Positions 9,801 through 30,280 of a stretch of 64,000 nt of DNA are shown here, piece after piece. Numbering within the stretch: position 1 is the first letter of the stretch; each line of letters starts with the position of its first letter. The DNA is from Craspedostauros australis (taxonomy: Eukaryota; Bacillariophyta; Bacillariophyceae; Mastogloiales; Achnanthaceae), in contig JAMXDE010000021.1 of assembly GCA_026770025.1 (NCBI GenBank), positions 248,001 through 312,000 on the forward strand, given 5' to 3'. The position numbers and the translations under genes are program-made. The notes under the pieces are model-generated. The model was given only the letters and a program-made list of their open reading frames with translations. It was not told where the DNA came from and made no database searches.

Positions 9801-10922
9801 ACAAGAATGCATGAAACATGGCACGTGACAAGGGATACTCGTTGTCGCCTCTCCTTGTCATACCTCCTTGTTTCGTGTTGCAGAAAGCGAAGGAGAAGAA
9901 GAAGCATCATGACAGAATATCCTGAAGACGAGGTAAGAGCTCTGCGTGGAGTGATAGAGTTGATGATGTGGTCACGTCTCTTGTGCGTGACGCCGAAGAC
10001 AGCACAGCGGTTATACGACTACAAGTAGTGAAGTCGTACAATTCCGTTTGTGTAGGGGGCCACTGTGGCACCATGATGAGATGCAAAGAACAGCACGTCT
10101 CGGCCTCCATGGGGGGGGGGAAAGACGGTAATTTTGCATTTCCCATGATAAGGCAACAACAGTTTCTTCCATAATCAGCAGTTCAAAAGTCAAAAACCAA
10201 ACTGAAAATTTGCCATCTTTGAGCATTCTTCCTGTCAGTTGTTTGCACAATCATCCTGATTTATGCAAAACCCAGATTCGCGGCTCCATTTTTGACTTTT
10301 ACACCCTGTTGCCTGTTCGTGCGTCTGCGGCGCAGATGATGTCGTGCCGCGTTGTGCTTGCCAAGGCACGTGGAAAGTGTCGTACTTTGCCGCGAAAACG
10401 CCATCATCGCGCGATCGTCTCGCTGTGATGGCCATGGCGGCCATGGCATGCGCTGGTGTCTTGCACGCTTTCGGCGACAGAAACCCTTGTCCGTTCCGAT
10501 GCAAAAAAGAGTTCTCAAGATGCGATTTGAACGGGTCGGAAATGTCTTTGCATTCCTTGATACGATTAAAAACGTCACCACCAAGCAAGGGTGTACTGAA
10601 TTCAGGTACATACCACAGCAATGGGTGATAACAAAGGGAGGCATAAGCAATAAATTGCAATCATGACACATCAATCGCGGAATGGCAATACACAAAGATA
10701 ATTATTAATTCATATGAACCAGAAAATGCAATTAATACGATGTTAAATGCTAAACATGTCAAAGCGCATGACATGGACAGACAGAGAAGCTTACTTAACC
10801 AATGACATAATGACACAATAATGTTTAAGCTTCACTTGAACGCAATGAGTAAGGGTCATTGTTTGCTTATAAACCCACATTCTATACGCACAGTATCGAT
10901 CCTTCATGCACACTGCATTATC
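6878..10922. other. Four-kilobase stretch without a supportable gene
   Basis: Open frames up to about 200 codons occur on both strands, but they overlap each other, most lack ATG starts, and none shows a domain, signal peptide or biased composition. A ten-base G run lies at 10111-10120. Base composition becomes visibly AT-richer from about 10.1 kb onward. Noncoding transcripts or small spliced genes cannot be excluded. Confidence 0.45.
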
Positions 10923-22062: not shown

Positions 22063-22924
22063 CTTGGCTGTTTGTATGGCAGTGTGCTATAGTCTGGTGT
22101 GTGCACTTGTAGTGTCTGTAGTTGGTGCTCTCGTTTCCTTCCCTTCCCTTTCCTTCCTTTCGTTCGTTTTTCGACTTCCTGGCTTGACGCTGTCTCTTCG
22201 TGCAGCGTGGATTGCTGTGTGCTCGTATCCTCCTGTTCCGTCGTTTCGCACAACAACCAAATGGATGTCTTGTCTTGTCTTGTGTTGCGTTGGTTTTGTG
22301 AGCGAATTCCAATGCGCTCTCTTGTTCTTGGTGCCGTTCTTTCGTCTCTCTCTTCTTCAAATCGCTTCAAGCTGCCTCCGATGGGTCCGACTCTGTCAGC
22401 GCTTCAGCTTGTCGTTCGTCCAATGTCCCAAACAATGGAGAATGGTGGTTGGGCCATGCGAGTGCTTCGTTTGCTGTGTTGGTCTTCCCTTTCTCACTCC
22501 GACTGTGTTGGTGTCATGTTTTGGCGTTTGCGGTTGTGCCTCTCTTCTTGCTTGGTGATTTGCCGCCGATGTTGCCGCCATGGTCGTCCAAAATGCAAAA
22601 CGACCCCACGGTGTTCTTCGTGGCCTCTCCGTCGTGTTACTCTACGCGCAAACAACAACAACAAAAGCGTCGCCACCACAAGAACACGCGCAGAACTCCA
22701 ACAGAATTGTCCGCCCGTGACGTGGATTCAGTACTGCAAATCGTCGCACAAAATGAAGACGAAGTGGCATCAACTTTTGAATCAACTCGAATCCGATCAT
22801 TCGACTCGCATTGTGTTGTCGAGCTGTCATTAAACGGACAAATTCACGGACACTCCATTGCTTTCAAAAACAACGTCAATATAACGTTAATGGCATCTGA
22901 CCGTGTGGATCGCCATTTCAAGAC
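22063..22924. other. Intergenic, RAD54 upstream flank to transposon
   Basis: Presumed RAD54 promoter on the minus strand. Plus-strand frames here are G/T-rich and lack convincing ATG starts. One of them (22449-22934, TTG start) ends inside the transposon LTR. Confidence 0.45.
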
Positions 22925-22929
22925 GAAAT
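22925..22929 (+). repeat. Target site duplication GAAAT, left copy
   Basis: GAAAT directly precedes the TG of the left LTR and is repeated directly after the CA of the right LTR. Confidence 0.95.
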
Positions 22930-23041
22930 TGTGATAATCCCTTGCACAAAAGAAGAAGGAACCGAATTTATGAGGTTACCTTGTGTGTGTGTGTCATTGT
23001 TCCTCCACCCACATGGAAGGACAGAAGGACAGACGCTGACA
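22930..23041 (-). repeat. 3' LTR (112 bp)
   Basis: Starts TGTGATAATCC and ends GACGCTGACA on the plus strand. By eye it matches 30164-30275 over all 112 bases. It contains a short GT run. Confidence 0.95.
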
Positions 23042-23051
23042 CCCCCCCCTC
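23042..23051 (-). promoter_or_regulatory. Polypurine tract of the retrotransposon
   Basis: On the coding (minus) strand GAGGGGGGGG lies immediately before the TGTCAGC start of the 3' LTR, the expected position of the plus-strand primer for reverse transcription. Confidence 0.8.
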
Positions 23052-23069
23052 GGTCCCAACTGCCAGACA

Positions 23070-24043
23070 CTAGTGCCTCAAACAAACGGCTGTAGCCAAC
23101 GCCATTGGCGATTTTTGGCGATTTTTGGATCACGAAAAATGGTCTGTAGAATCTAGTACATTTTCTACGTAAGTCCCGAACGAAAACAGGCCAGAAACAG
23201 CATCAACCGTGGTCCAACTCTCCGCACTCAGCTCGTATGGGCCATCCTGTACTCATATTTAAGTTATAGTATCGAATAGTGTTTATATATACCATCCTTA
23301 AGTTTGGTGGCTGTTGCTCTCTTTCTCGGTGAGCACTGATGCCATCCATCAAGCACCCCCATCATTCACGGACGTTTTTTGGCTTCTGGTTGGCGTGTTT
23401 TCATGGTCGAGTTGTTCCAAAGAAGTGTCCCAACCGTCCATGACGTCATAATGACGCAAGCGTTGGAACCAGAATTGACCAAACTTGCCACCGAAATTGG
23501 GGATCCGAGTGGTCAAATATCAATCCGACCTCCATGGGAGCACTAAACGCAAGCATACCTCCATACCATCGCACTCAAACATAATATAGATCATATAGTT
23601 GTGACCGCCTCGGAGAGAGTATTCTGAAATGATATCTATTGTACAGATTGAGCCAAAGAATGCTCAGCGCGGAGACTTCAAAGATGGAGGGTCGAATTTC
23701 TCGAAACAAGAGGCCAGATCCTACCAGACCCCTGTAGAATCCTACTTGTAGCCAAATGTAGCCAATGAAAACCCGGTCCGTCCTTCGTCCGAAGGCAAAA
23801 CCACACCAAGGGGGTCAACAAACACAAAAAGATCGATGAGATGGTAGTAACAACATTATAATGTTAACACTTGCCTGGATAGCCCTGGCTCTTAAGTTTA
23901 CGTAGATGTGAAGAGATGTTGGATTGAGTGTCTATAAAACGAAGGCGGAGTTTGGGAAAAACTGATCCAAAATCTGTAGCCAACTGTAGCCAATAATCGC
24001 CAATAATCGCCAATTTTTGGGGTCCGTTTGTTTGAGGCACTAG
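23070..24043. mobile_element. Possible nested inverted-repeat element in the 3' noncoding part of the copia element
   Basis: CTAGTGCCTCAAACAAACGG at 23070-23089 is repeated as its reverse complement at 24024-24043. Inside, both arms carry copies of GGCGATTWTTGG, so the inverted similarity extends to about 60 bp with gaps. GTAGCCAA recurs several times, near 23091, 23748, 23757, 23977 and 23986. No transposase frame lies between the arms. I could not find a convincing target duplication, so this could instead be structured 3' sequence belonging to the retrotransposon. Confidence 0.45.
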
Positions 24044-24089
24044 ACTGGCGCTTTGTGGACCGAAAAGAAGAAGCAAACACAAGAGAAGT

Positions 24090-24247
24090 CCCCGCGCTAT
24101 TCGCGGGGTGTGTCAGAACCCACGCTAATCGTGGGACCGCCTCACCGTTCGCGCTAATCGCGAAACGCCGTTGTATCCGCGCTAACCGCAGAACTGGCCT
24201 CCGACCGCGCTAACCGCGGTGTCGGCGCTCACCCGTGTGACTCACGG
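24090..24247 (-). repeat. Array of six stem-loops with 28-29 nt spacing at the end of pol
   Basis: Stem-loops occupy 24090-24108, 24119-24135, 24148-24164, 24176-24192, 24204-24220 and 24233-24247. Plus-strand loops are CTATT, CTAAT, CTAAT, CTAAC, CTAAC and TGACT, with loop centres 28 or 29 nt apart. Stems are 5-7 bp and differ in sequence while remaining paired (CCCCGCG/CGCGGGG, CCCACG/CGTGGG, TTCGCG/CGCGAA, ACCGCG/CGCGGT); one stem has a single mismatch. The sixth covers the last pol codons and the other five lie in the 3' UTR. Confidence 0.9.
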
Positions 24248-27200
24248 ACTTGGACCGCCGGTGCGTTGTCCCGGCTTGCACTTCGCGCTGAGGCCCAGAG
24301 CGGCATCAACCGCCCAGTAATGTTATCCATGTGACGAAGGAAGAGCCTCGCCATCACCTGTTTTGTTTCCGCGTCCGCCGCGTTGAGATCGGACGCGATC
24401 TGCTGAAGGACCAGAAAGTCTTGATCCACCCAGTCCTGCAGTGCAAACACTTTTATGTCGATGTGACGAGTGTGCTTGGTGGATTGTCCCGCATTAGACA
24501 CCAGGACCGCCCCTCTATTGTCCTCGTATAGTACTGTTGGCGTGGTCTGTACATGCCCAATTTCGGAGAGGATTGCGCGGAGACACATGGCCATCCTGCC
24601 CGCATCCGCAGCGCATATCAGCTCCGCCTCCGTCGAGGAGTGCGCAACCACGGTTTGCACCCTGCATTTCCATGCGACTGCAGCCCCGGCTAACTTGAAT
24701 GTGACGCCTGAGATGGACCTGCGATGTGTCGTGTCCATTGCCCAGTCACTGTCGGCATACCCGTAGAGCTCCACAGGTGCAAAACGAGAAATGGCATCCT
24801 CATGGACGTCATCGTGGGGCTCACTGGCTCGCGCCGGCGGTGGCTCCTCTGGTAACCCTTCCGCCGGTGTCTGTCGCCAGAATGTTAGCCCTGCCCTTGT
24901 GTCCTTCTTGAGGTATCGAAACACCTTCTTGGCGGCTTCGTAGTGTTTCACCCCAGGGCGATTTGAGAACTGTGAAAGCTTCACCACGGGGAACGCTATA
25001 TCCGGGCGGCACGTTACCGCTGGCCAGATGAGTTCCCCCATCGCCTGTCTGTATCGAAATCGCTTGGCTTCAGCAACGCGTTTCTCCTGTTCGTTCAATG
25101 CCGGCTCTTCGTCAAGCTCCCGCATGTACGAGTTACTGCTCTGCATCGGCATCTGTTGTGGGTTGAGATCCTGCCACGAGTGCCGCTCGAACACCTTTTC
25201 CAGGTAAGTTTGAGCGTGGATGTGGATGAAGTGCCTGGTTTGCACGAAATCCAGCCCATTGAAATGCACGACTTGATAGAAGCGCTTGAGCGGAGACGAT
25301 AGCCGTTGGTCGATTTCATCACAAACTCTGTCGAAATCTGCCCGCCGAGCAGTCGCAACTGCGATGTCGTCGACCTGCCGGATAAGATACATGCACCTCC
25401 CCTGAATTGATCGTCGGTATAGGCATTTTGCATGCGTGGTCGGGATGAATCCAAGGTCTTGGAGAATCCTGTCGATGTGTTTCGCCCACTGACGTGGAGC
25501 TTCCGGATGTCCCTGTAGGTTCTTCAACACTGGGATGACACATCCATAGGGAATCGGCGCTCGTCCTTTCTGCGCCCACCAATCCTGGAACTGCTTATCC
25601 ACCCGCATGAAGTACTCCTGTTCGCCTCTGTCGGCCTCTGCGAATGCATTGCTCACGTCGGCGCTGTACAGAGTCATTCCTGCTGTGGCCGCCAAGGCCA
25701 CAAAGAGCCTCATATCCGTCTGATCTGGAGTAGGCGTGTACGTCTGCCCGGTGATCTTGGCTTGTCCCGCTCGAGGTGACCCATCACACGCCGTTCGCGC
25801 TTTGCGTCTTGTTTCAGTGGGGTTCTCCTTCAGGACGTAGATCCAAACCCAGTGGAATGCCAGCATGCCTGGTTGCATGGACGTCGGAGCACCAAACATG
25901 CCCTGAGACTCGTACTGGTCCAGTTGCTTGTGTTCCGCCGCTCTCCACAGCTCCCACTCGGCACTTGCGGCGAGGTCGGATCGCTTGAGCTTGAGGACCG
26001 CACGCGTGCTTCGTGCGGCATCTCGCGCTTGATGCCGTATGTCGCGAATATCCCTCCACTGATCAAAGTACAGATGCATGAGACCTGTGGCGCCCATTGC
26101 ATTTCGAACATCGTCATGGGCGAACGTCGCCTCAACGGCGCCTTGTCCAGCCTTGCGCGCCTCAGAGATCGCGTCCTTCACATCTGTCTCGGTACGGACC
26201 TCCACGCCTCCAACGCGGAGCAGGTACGCCATGCGCAGCCGACTTCTCCATCGTGGAATGTGTCGAGCAGCCGTGCCGACAGCGATGTCCACCAGCTGCA
26301 CGCGGCGACGTTGTGGGTCCTCTTGTAGAACCATGCCCGCGTATTCATGATCATTGCCGACGTTCCACTCCTGTCCAAAAGAGAAGACAAACGGATCATC
26401 AGAGACCTCGATCGTTGCGACGTCCCGTATGGACCACTCCGATCCTGCGCGCGCGGGCGTCTCCACCGTCGCTGCTGATGCATGCGCCGGCATCGACACC
26501 ACCTCTCCAAACGGTAGCTGGGTCATCAGCGCCTCCTTCGGCGTCTTCACCATGGCACGCGGGACTATCGCGGGCACAACGGGTGTTCCGGAGGTTTCTG
26601 CCGTTGCCCGGGGTTCGTTGCTGACCGCACCCTCCATCTCACGCATCCCGAGGTTGTACAGGAACTGCGCAGCGGGCGGGCGGCTCGCCAGGGAGTAGTG
26701 TGACTCATCGAAGGAGAATGTTGCCCCTGTCTTGACCACGCCCGAGAGGATGTCGAGATACCGCATGTTGGCACCATCGCCGCTGAAACCCAAGAACACA
26801 CCCGTGTAGGTGTGCTTGTCAAGCTTTGCAGCCGGCATGTTGGGCTTCCGTTCAAGTACGCGAGCACCAAACACGCGAAGATGTGCGATGTTGGGTTTGT
26901 GACCATTCCATGCCTCGTACGGGGACATGTCAATGGCAGAATGCCAAAGACGGTTCTTCAGGTACACCGCATGAGTGAGTGCCGCTGACCAGTACTGCGG
27001 AGGCAGCCCTGCGCCATAAAGAAGCGCTCGTACCTGCACCGAGAATGTCCGATTTAGACGTTCCACCTTGCCGTTGCGGTGATGTACACCTGCACCAGTG
27101 GGCTCCACACAGTATCCAGCGTCCGCCACGGCCTGCAGTACCTGCTGCGACCCATAGAGCTCCCCACCATGATCAATCCGGATGCTCCGGTATCCATCAG

Positions 27201-28341
27201 GTAAGCCAAATCTTTTCAGATGTTGGCTGAGGATGTCCACGGGTGGCTTCTTGCCGACCGTTGGAAAAACCCACGAGTACCTTGTCTTCGCATCGACGAC
27301 GACGAGATACGCTGTGCACCCGTCAAACGACCGCACCACGCGCTGGCCCTTGCGTCCCACGCCGTAAGCATTGGAACTCGCGCGCATGAACCCGAAATCC
27401 ACGTGAAATCTGGACCCCGGGCGTAGTGAATCTGTTGAAACTGTTGGCCCTCGCGCCGGCCTCACCGCATGCGCTTCCACGCAAATGGGACAGTACCGGT
27501 GCGGATGCGAACAACGATGGAGGCCGTCTGGCACGCCGTCTGCCGCACCCTGTATGTGCTGCATCTGAGTGGCGCCCGGGTGCCCGAGTCGTTGATGCCA
27601 CAGCTCGTACTTGAGCATGGACTCTCCCGCCTGAGTTGACTGCACCACAGCACTCTCGGAGCTCAGCGGTTCAAAGTAGAAGAGCCCATTGTGTTGTACG
27701 AGCGCCGCACGAGCAAGGACAGCATCCGACCTGTCTCGAAACGCGAGGCTTGATCGCTCTGGACGTATGTCGATGACAAAGGAGTGGAACTCTCTCTCAT
27801 GATCACAGATGGCTTGCGGGGACAAGATGGTCCCGCTCACCCGAGGGCTGTAGTGTACCCTCGCGTTCACCTGTCGAAGCCCCGTCACCGGGAGGTGCAC
27901 CGTGCCAATCTCTCGACATACCACGTCCGGGCTGGACGAGTCCATGCCAGAGACGCGCAGAGGAACACCGAGTGTTGTGACCCCATGCAGAATGTTGCGA
28001 TTGTTAGTGACCGAGACGTTCGCTCCCAGGTCACACTGACCTTGCTGGCTCCGTCGAACACCGACCAAGTGAACCGTCGATGAGTGATTGGCTTGAGTCT
28101 CGTCTGCGAGAAGGAAGCTAGGATGATGATCCCCGGGGTCCCACGTCATCCTACACGCGTGAGCGACGGGCGCGGGTCCTGCCGTGGACACGTGTTCGGC
28201 CTGCATCATCGGCGGCGCCCGGAGCTCCTTGCTTGCTGGAGCTGCGGCCATGGGCCCGCAGTTTCCCAATAAAAGCCGTTCACCACCCTGGATTGCGGGC
28301 GGCCGGCTTACGGAAAATGTTGTTCGTGGAAGACCATCCAC
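24229..28341 (-). CDS. pol: Copia pol polyprotein: protease, integrase, reverse transcriptase, RNase H
   Basis: Reading frame of about 1370 codons, open from 28353, in the -1 frame relative to gag and overlapping its end by about 45 nt. The listed start is a GTG, so synthesis presumably needs frameshifting from gag. Order: protease with CDLGANV (Asp near residue 104); the GAG-pre-integrase zinc site (WHQRLGH, then CPICVEAH); integrase core with HVDFGF, RIDHGGE and KVERLNRTF supplying the D, D, E residues; reverse transcriptase with SADVSNAFAEA and the VDD box RQVDDIAVA near residue 989; RNase H (YADSDWA, HSSTEAEL, YEDNRGA) from about 1190 to 1330. No internal stop is present. The stop lies within the stem-loop array. 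Confidence 0.95.
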   Translation of the reverse strand: MDGLPRTTFSVSRPPAIQGGERLLLGNCGPMAAAPASKELRAPPMMQAEHVSTAGPAPVAHACRMTWDPGDHHPSFLLADETQANHSSTVHLVGVRRSQQGQCDLGANVSVTNNRNILHGVTTLGVPLRVSGMDSSSPDVVCREIGTVHLPVTGLRQVNARVHYSPRVSGTILSPQAICDHEREFHSFVIDIRPERSSLAFRDRSDAVLARAALVQHNGLFYFEPLSSESAVVQSTQAGESMLKYELWHQRLGHPGATQMQHIQGAADGVPDGLHRCSHPHRYCPICVEAHAVRPARGPTVSTDSLRPGSRFHVDFGFMRASSNAYGVGRKGQRVVRSFDGCTAYLVVVDAKTRYSWVFPTVGKKPPVDILSQHLKRFGLPDGYRSIRIDHGGELYGSQQVLQAVADAGYCVEPTGAGVHHRNGKVERLNRTFSVQVRALLYGAGLPPQYWSAALTHAVYLKNRLWHSAIDMSPYEAWNGHKPNIAHLRVFGARVLERKPNMPAAKLDKHTYTGVFLGFSGDGANMRYLDILSGVVKTGATFSFDESHYSLASRPPAAQFLYNLGMREMEGAVSNEPRATAETSGTPVVPAIVPRAMVKTPKEALMTQLPFGEVVSMPAHASAATVETPARAGSEWSIRDVATIEVSDDPFVFSFGQEWNVGNDHEYAGMVLQEDPQRRRVQLVDIAVGTAARHIPRWRSRLRMAYLLRVGGVEVRTETDVKDAISEARKAGQGAVEATFAHDDVRNAMGATGLMHLYFDQWRDIRDIRHQARDAARSTRAVLKLKRSDLAASAEWELWRAAEHKQLDQYESQGMFGAPTSMQPGMLAFHWVWIYVLKENPTETRRKARTACDGSPRAGQAKITGQTYTPTPDQTDMRLFVALAATAGMTLYSADVSNAFAEADRGEQEYFMRVDKQFQDWWAQKGRAPIPYGCVIPVLKNLQGHPEAPRQWAKHIDRILQDLGFIPTTHAKCLYRRSIQGRCMYLIRQVDDIAVATARRADFDRVCDEIDQRLSSPLKRFYQVVHFNGLDFVQTRHFIHIHAQTYLEKVFERHSWQDLNPQQMPMQSSNSYMRELDEEPALNEQEKRVAEAKRFRYRQAMGELIWPAVTCRPDIAFPVVKLSQFSNRPGVKHYEAAKKVFRYLKKDTRAGLTFWRQTPAEGLPEEPPPARASEPHDDVHEDAISRFAPVELYGYADSDWAMDTTHRRSISGVTFKLAGAAVAWKCRVQTVVAHSSTEAELICAADAGRMAMCLRAILSEIGHVQTTPTVLYEDNRGAVLVSNAGQSTKHTRHIDIKVFALQDWVDQDFLVLQQIASDLNAADAETKQVMARLFLRHMDNITGRLMPLWASARSASRDNAPAVQVRESHG

Positions 28342-30089
28342 GCCATCAGTGCCTCATCGGAGTCCTCATCAGCGCCGGCTGCAACGATTTTTCGCACTGC
28401 AGCCTTGCGATCATCCTTGGAGTAGTATGCCTTGAGGTGTGCTGCGAGCTTGTTGGCGAGTTCCCCGTTCTTCTGGTGGAAGTCGGACATCACGGCGAAC
28501 CGAGCAAGGTATATGCACGATGTGGCCTCATGACCTTTCCGGTTGCATGCCGCACAGAGGGCGCCAGGCACCGGTTGTCGGAAAGGATTGTCTGTGGTCG
28601 TCTTGTCTCTGCCTGCGGTAGGCTTAGTTGCCTTCTCGTCTGGGCCTCTCTTGGAGTATGGATTCGTGAGCTTGTGCACACGTGCATCACCCTTGTTGAC
28701 TCGTTGGACTTCCGTAGTCATGGCCATCACACCGAACGTGCTTGGCAGGCTGTCGCCAGGTGGGATCGCGTCCAAATCGAGCTGCAAGCGGCCCACGTCA
28801 AGGCCGTGTCCCCTGACTTCTTGCAGAAAATGTATAGCTGCTTGTCGGTCGGTGAACCCACCCTGGGACCCATGATCCTGCATGTAGTCCATCAGACGGG
28901 ATGCAAAGTCCACCACACTGGTGCCACTTGACAACGTTGGCACCTGTGGGAGCCCAGCGTTACCTCGTTGTTGCTCCGCATGCACCAGCACTTGATGGAT
29001 GAAGTCGAACGCCGCGAGGTTCCCAGTGGCGTTGTGCACCATGTGGTGCTTGTAGAACAGCTGGAGCCACGGGGCTTCAGCGTCGACGTTTCCAGTGGCC
29101 ATGAACTTCATCTTGAGCGCAGTGTTCATGGCGGTGACCTTGTGGGACGGGCGATTGGGAAACACCACGTACTTCGGGTCGAATTGGCTGAACGGAATCA
29201 GCTCTATGCCGTATGTATCGGCGATGACATGCAGCCGCTCGTACCAATGCTTGATGCCTTGGTACGTACCGTCGGAGAGACGTGCGACCTCAGCCTTGCC
29301 AAAGTTCTCCGCTTGGACAACGACGTTGCGCTGAGCGTCCACTTTCCATTGCGGATGTGGTGCGAGGGCCGCGCCGTACAGCGCACGTGGCTTCCCAGAG
29401 CTGTCAGCCGAGGATGCGTCGTTGATGACATCCTCGAAGTAGCTTCTGGAGAATGCGCTGGTGTCACGCCGCTCGGAGCGTGTGGCGCCGCGATCGCGAC
29501 CGCCTTCAGCCACCACAGTGCGTCCTGTCATGGTCTGGGCGCCTGCGTTGGCGCGTGTCTCACGGCGCACACCGATGCGGACAGTGGTCTCATTGCCGTT
29601 GTTGTCGTGGTTGTCAGTGATGGTGGTGTCGTCAGAGAATGCAGTGGTAGAGGCGATGGGGACGCCACCATTGTAGTACGCACTGTCGAACGACGACCAG
29701 TCGAAGCCCGCTCCAAAACCCGTGCTTCGCCACCATTTGGCGAACGTGACAAGCCAGTACTTGGCAGGGCCCGAGATTTCTATGGAGTGCACCTCCAGCA
29801 TCTGGCTGATGCCTGCAGTGTCAAGATTGAGTACGTGGTTGAGGCGACCGTAGAACGAGGCTGGTTGGGTTTCACTTTCAAAAAGGGGCAGTACCATGAG
29901 GATGGCATCCGCGGGAACAGACGCGACTCGAAGAATGCGCCGTGCTTCGGCTCGAGGGTCAAACGCCGTGGGCGCGCCATTGCGGGCAGCAAGCGACGGG
30001 ACATCGTTGTTGCCCTCACCAACACGAGGTGGAGGTGGGCTGGACCCGTCACCGTCGGTTGAAGACGTAGCGGACCGGGTGGCCACCAT
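28308..30089 (-). CDS. gag: Copia Gag polyprotein (593 aa)
   Basis: First in-frame ATG is at 30089 (the frame is open to 30131 without ATG). The N-terminal part is Ser/Pro/Asp-rich. The central helical region is the expected particle-forming Gag. Near the C-terminus is one zinc knuckle of form CX2CX4HX4C (CAACNRKGHEATSC), which binds RNA. Stop TAA is at 28308. There is no canonical slippery heptamer in the overlap with pol. The antisense frame at 28968-30062 is a shadow. Confidence 0.9.
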   Translation of the reverse strand: MVATRSATSSTDGDGSSPPPPRVGEGNNDVPSLAARNGAPTAFDPRAEARRILRVASVPADAILMVLPLFESETQPASFYGRLNHVLNLDTAGISQMLEVHSIEISGPAKYWLVTFAKWWRSTGFGAGFDWSSFDSAYYNGGVPIASTTAFSDDTTITDNHDNNGNETTVRIGVRRETRANAGAQTMTGRTVVAEGGRDRGATRSERRDTSAFSRSYFEDVINDASSADSSGKPRALYGAALAPHPQWKVDAQRNVVVQAENFGKAEVARLSDGTYQGIKHWYERLHVIADTYGIELIPFSQFDPKYVVFPNRPSHKVTAMNTALKMKFMATGNVDAEAPWLQLFYKHHMVHNATGNLAAFDFIHQVLVHAEQQRGNAGLPQVPTLSSGTSVVDFASRLMDYMQDHGSQGGFTDRQAAIHFLQEVRGHGLDVGRLQLDLDAIPPGDSLPSTFGVMAMTTEVQRVNKGDARVHKLTNPYSKRGPDEKATKPTAGRDKTTTDNPFRQPVPGALCAACNRKGHEATSCIYLARFAVMSDFHQKNGELANKLAAHLKAYYSKDDRKAAVRKIVAAGADEDSDEALMAWMVFHEQHFP

Positions 30090-30163
30090 CTTGAAGAAGA
30101 GGAGGTGGAAGAGGAAGAGTTGTTGTTGCAATGCTGCGAAGCCTTGAAAGAAAGGCCAAAACC

Positions 30164-30275
30164 TGTGATAATCCCTTGCACAAAAGAAGAAGGAACCGAA
30201 TTTATGAGGTTACCTTGTGTGTGTGTGTCATTGTTCCTCCACCCACATGGAAGGACAGAAGGACAGACGCTGACA
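30164..30275 (-). repeat. 5' LTR (112 bp)
   Basis: Identical by eye to 22930-23041. It lies upstream of gag on the coding strand and should contain the element's promoter. Confidence 0.95.
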
Positions 30276-30280
30276 GAAAT
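30276..30280 (+). repeat. Target site duplication GAAAT, right copy
   Basis: Directly follows the terminal CA of the right LTR and matches 22925-22929. Confidence 0.95.

Follow-up and report, generated by a model that had tools for sequence, protein, structure and literature searches.

The window analysed here is a stretch of 64,000 nucleotides from the diatom Craspedostauros australis. On its minus strand, at positions 22930-30275, lies a Copia-type LTR retrotransposon, the element that carries the hairpin array described below (Table 1). The element shows the features of a Copia (Pseudoviridae-type) element, including LTRs, a target duplication, integrase ahead of reverse transcriptase, and an RVT_2 domain. 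The order of the Pfam domains in pol (gag_pre-integrs, SH3_retrovirus, RVT_2) is that of Copia, with the gag_pre-integrs match (E 6.3e-6) falling below the Pfam cut-off. A comparison of gag with Pfam found no family; one match to the pattern CX2CX4HX4C, identified by the pattern alone, is present at 28515-28556. The gag and pol frames overlap by 46 nt (window 28308-28353) with pol in the -1 frame, an arrangement that suggests a frameshift. Since the two LTRs are identical and both ORFs are open, the array is carried by a lineage that was recently able to move. In the genome, searched over 74.8 Mb in 90 contigs, the family is represented by this single full element and by a solo LTR that matches at 91% over 104 bp and is flanked on either side by CATTC, as judged by eye; no further copies of the same family were found.

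Table 1. Features of the retrotransposon and of its 3′ region, with positions in the window.
Feature	Position	Strand	Remarks
5-bp target duplication GAAAT	22925-22929 and 30276-30280		both flanks of the Copia element
3′ LTR	22930..23041	-	112 bp; identical to 5′ LTR
Polypurine tract (PPT)	23042..23049	-	eight G in sense strand; abuts 3′ LTR
PPT hairpin, 3′ arm	23051..23066	-	inner CTGGC, outer GGACCG
DNA transposon with terminal inverted repeats	23074..24039	.	966 bp; in PPT hairpin loop
PPT hairpin, 5′ arm	24045..24062	-	outer CGGTCC, inner GCCAG
Hairpin 6	24090..24108	-	loop AAUAG 24097-24101; 7 bp
Hairpin 5	24119..24135	-	loop AUUAG 24125-24129
Hairpin 4	24148..24164	-	loop AUUAG 24154-24158
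Hairpin 3	24176..24192	-	loop GUUAG 24182-24186; one U-G pair
Hairpin 2	24204..24220	-	loop GUUAG 24210-24214
pol stop codon	24229..24231	-	separates hairpins 1 and 2
Hairpin 1	24232..24248	-	loop AGUCA 24238-24242; outermost pair U-G; covers final pol codons
pol ORF	24229..28341	-	open; gag_pre-integrs, SH3_retrovirus, RVT_2 (Pfam)
gag ORF	28308..30131	-	open; 607 aa
5′ LTR	30164..30275	-	112 bp

The array consists of six hairpins with 5-nt loops at 24090-24248, read in the sense RNA (minus strand), at spacings of 28, 28, 28, 29 and 28 nt. The stems contain 6-7 pairs when G-U pairs are counted, and the inner 5 bp of the arms differ in five of the six units. Four of the loops have the sequence RUUAG, while the other two depart from it. 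The array straddles the pol stop and extends into the 3′ untranslated region, with hairpins 2-6 (five of six) located past the stop. An earlier note on this DNA had described, where a copia pol ends, stem-loops of changing stem and CTAAY-like loop (RTTAG in the RNA, in four of six), with the final codons inside the end hairpin, and this description is borne out. The loop centres that it gave (24099, 24127, 24156, 24184, 24212 and 24240) agree exactly with the computed minus-strand loop starts (24242, 24214, 24186, 24158, 24129 and 24101), the loop count is the same, and the array does lie where the note had put it. A protein-coding tandem repeat was considered and rejected, because the phase is not divisible by three and only hairpin 1 is located ahead of the stop.

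With the six units aligned on their loops, the stems change as the earlier note had claimed and still pair. All 36 cells pair, a figure that is partly circular since the units were picked for pairing, and four of the six pairs show two-sided changes between units; the innermost stem pair is invariant. The covariation score amounts to 0.633 against a mean of 0.295 for shuffled data, where none of 500 shuffles scored as high, and it does not exceed 0.222 when the partner is slid out of register. Mean identity is 67% for the hairpins and 28% for the linkers, the latter compared with 26% for shuffled linkers. The gapped score of the linkers, of which there are only five, is slightly above that of the shuffles, 9% of which score as high. 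By these patterns the array looks like a selected RNA structure. A kept loop on a varying stem is what is expected of loop recognition, and is the opposite of what is expected of a dyad site for a DNA-binding protein.

A chance origin of the six phased hairpins is excluded. Six such hairpins appeared in 3 of 20,000 dinucleotide shuffles of the 163-nt stretch, and the longest regularly spaced chain, six in the observed sequence, was three in 3000 shuffles (reached in 16 of them). No other 163-nt stretch with six such hairpins was found on either strand of the 64-kb window, and two other places, at 10284-10482 and 29650-29817, hold five.

Folding energies were lower than for most shuffles in each form considered, with z-scores of -2.75 for the sense RNA (3 of 200 shuffles as good), -1.55 for the antisense RNA (11 of 200) and -3.84 for the plus strand folded as DNA (0 of 200), the DNA fold covering this strand alone. 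In view of the last value, the energies alone do not decide between RNA and DNA. Units 1 and 3 contain G-U pairs, which can form in the sense strand alone and favour sense RNA over DNA as the acting form. In the minimum-free-energy folds of the whole stretch the hairpins are kept, with some linkers re-paired into extra pairs, and in the sense-RNA fold hairpin 4 is reduced to its four inner pairs. Kissing-loop partners were also sought; three sense-strand pairings with CTAAY-containing loops at two places (24888 and 28007) have weak stems and were dropped.

The array is known from one copy. A DNA search of the genome for the array matched the window copy alone, and the pattern TTAGCGN{18,26}TTAGCG gave eight matches in the genome, three of which belong to the array; the other five loci have no chains of four or more hairpins. 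Relatives of the element were defined as matches to its RNase H region; from 1511 initial candidates, 150 relatives were scored, and the 3′ tails of 69 of these were examined. None of the tails contains the array, and a covariance model of a hairpin pair gave no credible match in them, the single one obtained having E 9.3. In the window the same model gave three strong matches that span the six hairpins, together with one weak antisense match, window matches being obtained by construction because the model was derived from the window's own units. The earlier note had counted related copies without the hairpins against its reading; such absence is indeed found, but the 69 relatives represent other families, with a best non-self RNase H identity of 54% at the amino acid level. 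Absence from the relatives means that the array is not a general requirement of the element group. As judged from these comparisons, it is specific to its lineage and was added to a 3′ region that is itself structured. Rfam 15 covariance models over 22900-24400 gave no matches up to E 1.

The RNase H piece has no relative among the viral contigs searched. Repeated TTAGCG (triple pattern) occurs at a minimum of 120 loci in viral contigs, 120 of which were examined. Among the 120 contigs listed, 19 have chains of at least four hairpins; one stem is used throughout in 14 of these chains and two stems in four, while the sole chain that uses four stems also uses four different loops. Thus none among the 120 listed has stems that change round a kept loop. 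One of the contigs (L152) holds ten hairpins with an identical stem and the loop TTAG at a period of ~29, a plain tandem repeat.

A second structure is found beside the PPT. Downstream of pol, 49 of the 69 relatives (L003-L031 and L060-L079) have a PPT with a run of at least five G, and an upstream hairpin lies at or near the PPT in all 49. The hairpin ends 0-1 nt from the G-run in 45 of them and 9-11 nt away in L060 and L069-L071. The length of the G-run in the relatives ranges from 5 to 31. The hairpin contains an interior loop in L005-L010 and L074. Perfect stems of six or more pairs within 2 nt are present in 17 of 26 distinct segments, compared with 35 of 10,400 shuffles. For the main form, in which six distinct types of stem were compared, 41 of 42 cells pair and two-sided changes occur at three pairs; column shuffles attained these two values in 17 and 86 of 5000 cases, respectively. 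Covariation was counted on the stems themselves, as a MAFFT alignment gapped the stem and was excluded. The remaining 20 tails (L080-L099), which have no G-run of six, were excluded from the count of PPT hairpins. By eye, decayed forms of the hairpin are recognizable in L086-L090 and L092-L094, but none in L095-L099.

In the window element the two arms of the PPT hairpin are separated by ~1 kb of DNA transposon, which thereby also parts the array from the 3′ LTR. Neither this transposon nor the PPT hairpin of the relatives figures in the earlier note. Joining of the transposon flanks restores a hairpin, CGGTCC-...-GGACCG, that adjoins the eight-G PPT. The transposon has the terminal inverted repeats TGCCTCAAACAAACGG, and its target duplication, the 4 bp CTAG, occupies 23070-23073 and 24040-24043. 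The segment 23070-24043 matches at least 41 other places in the genome over ~795 bp or more. Both exact ends are present in 10 of 20 fetched copies, the window's included, and all ten have matching 4-bp flanks; the target duplications are close to CTAG. The near identity to other transposon copies suggests that the transposon was inserted after the retrotransposon.

Taken together, the data are best accommodated by a sense-RNA hairpin array that serves as a multivalent loop-binding platform for an RNA-binding protein, a tentative reading to which a probability of about 0.4 is assigned. The array may have originated when a unit of ~28 nt was duplicated several times, after which selection would have kept the pairing, the loop and the spacing while the letters of the linkers drifted. 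Each loop would bind one molecule of the protein, and the six phased copies suggest that binding to the genomic RNA is multivalent. The first candidate for the binder is the element's own Gag, in view of the CCHC pattern match in gag, with a putative role in packaging or particle assembly; the second is a host protein that could act in export or stability. Counting against the platform are the single copy, the two of six loops that depart from the common sequence, and the plus-strand DNA fold. Retroviral constitutive transport elements, which present hairpins whose protein-binding loops recur within the 3′ untranslated region of a genomic RNA, resemble the array in form; the comparison for matches was made through Rfam only, and none was found.

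In the group of Copia elements, a hairpin as a conserved cis element has been described for the fungal GalEa elements, in which a Conserved Hairpin Site located just after the 5′ LTR replaces the primer binding site (PMC5445492). The array shares with this site the use of hairpins, but the GalEa hairpin is single and lies beside the 5′ LTR, whereas the array has six hairpins at the 3′ end. The main text of the diatom Copia paper PMC2806351 contains no mention of hairpin, stem-loop, polypurine, PPT, secondary structure or untranslated, and a literature search, thin in subscription journals, found no published description of the array or the PPT hairpin in diatoms. It is conceivable, albeit with the odds clearly on the other side, that the array represents an undescribed type of retroelement cis element, in which phased hairpins of constant loop, with stems that covary freely, dock several copies of one protein on the genomic RNA, in a diatom Copia group whose PPT is also marked by a separate covarying hairpin.

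Alternatively, the array could be a functionless relic of tandem copies of a palindromic unit, the stems of which have not yet decayed. Its presence as a single copy, absent in the relatives, would fit such an origin, and the identical LTRs leave little time for decay since insertion. Moreover, unneeded structures in this group do decay, as indicated by relatives with a broken pol, where the PPT hairpin has only 5, 4 and 3 of its 7 pairs left (L086-L088, respectively). However, drift that erased the likeness of the linkers would have broken the stems as well, and yet these pair in every cell and show two-sided changes. A relic is considered unlikely.

A further explanation regards the array as an enlarged pre-PPT structure that positions or times plus-strand priming, for instance by pausing reverse transcriptase or exposing the PPT. 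The hairpin at or near the PPT in all relatives with a G-run, with its compensatory stem changes, agrees with this, as do the PPT hairpin of the window element itself and, in L019 and L023-L025, additional small hairpins located past the stop and upstream of the PPT hairpin. In Sireviruses an inverted repeat spans the PPT/LTR junction, with its right arm in the 3′ LTR and the PPT in the loop (PMC2829016). There, as in the diatom elements, an arm of the structure borders the PPT, but in the diatom relatives both arms are upstream of the PPT; when the 25 nt upstream were compared with the first 60 nt of the LTR for a right arm in the 3′ LTR, the longest match was 4-5 nt in all 26 distinct segments from the relatives. 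In the window element the PPT hairpin is additional to the array, at a distance of at least 50 nt, and differs from it in stem and in loop. The relatives prime without an array, and the PPT hairpin of L019 has one mismatch, A-C in the sense strand. A role of the array in priming is rather doubtful.

The dyads might instead work at the level of DNA, regulating transcription or chromatin as CpG-rich boxes or as sites of binding, in the manner of the repeated motifs (RM boxes) of Sireviruses, which are palindromic, occur in LTRs and linkers and have arms that are often more than 85% identical (PMC2829016). RM boxes resemble the array in belonging to the Copia superfamily and in forming several palindromic boxes with GC-rich cores in non-coding regions, among them the linker from pol to the 3′ LTR, but they keep their arms within an element, have a CGG-CCG core and are found mainly in LTRs or before an envelope gene. 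In the array, on the other hand, it is the arms that vary and the 5-nt centre that stays, at a phase of 28-29 nt; the cores are GCG/CGC or ACG/CGT, and all six hairpins lie outside the 112-bp LTRs. The plus-strand DNA fold and the CG-rich palindromic boxes in the linker downstream of pol speak for action as DNA; the varied inner arms and the G-U pairs speak against it, and this explanation is regarded as improbable. Similarly improbable is a role of the hairpins in protecting or processing the RNA 3′ end or in translation termination. The placement of the stop codon between the first two hairpins is in its favour, since exonucleases or ribosomes can be stalled by GC-rich stems that closely follow a stop, but the kept loop and phase would be left unexplained and the relatives do without the array.

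Returning to the protein-binding platform, the choice for packaging, the export and the priming of Copia genomic RNAs outside yeast are, in our judgement, little known. The units of the array may be viewed as a natural mutagenesis, in which stems were changed and loops kept, and could offer an easy handle on the protein that reads them. The hairpin beside the PPT provides a second and better replicated lead, on plus-strand priming in diatom elements. Apart from the retrotransposon, the genome contains 61 matches to the light-harvesting family PF00504 and 88 to PF03842, the family of silicon transporters, which mark the host as a diatom. More than 25 of these 88 are near full length, and their large number points to an apparent gene expansion.
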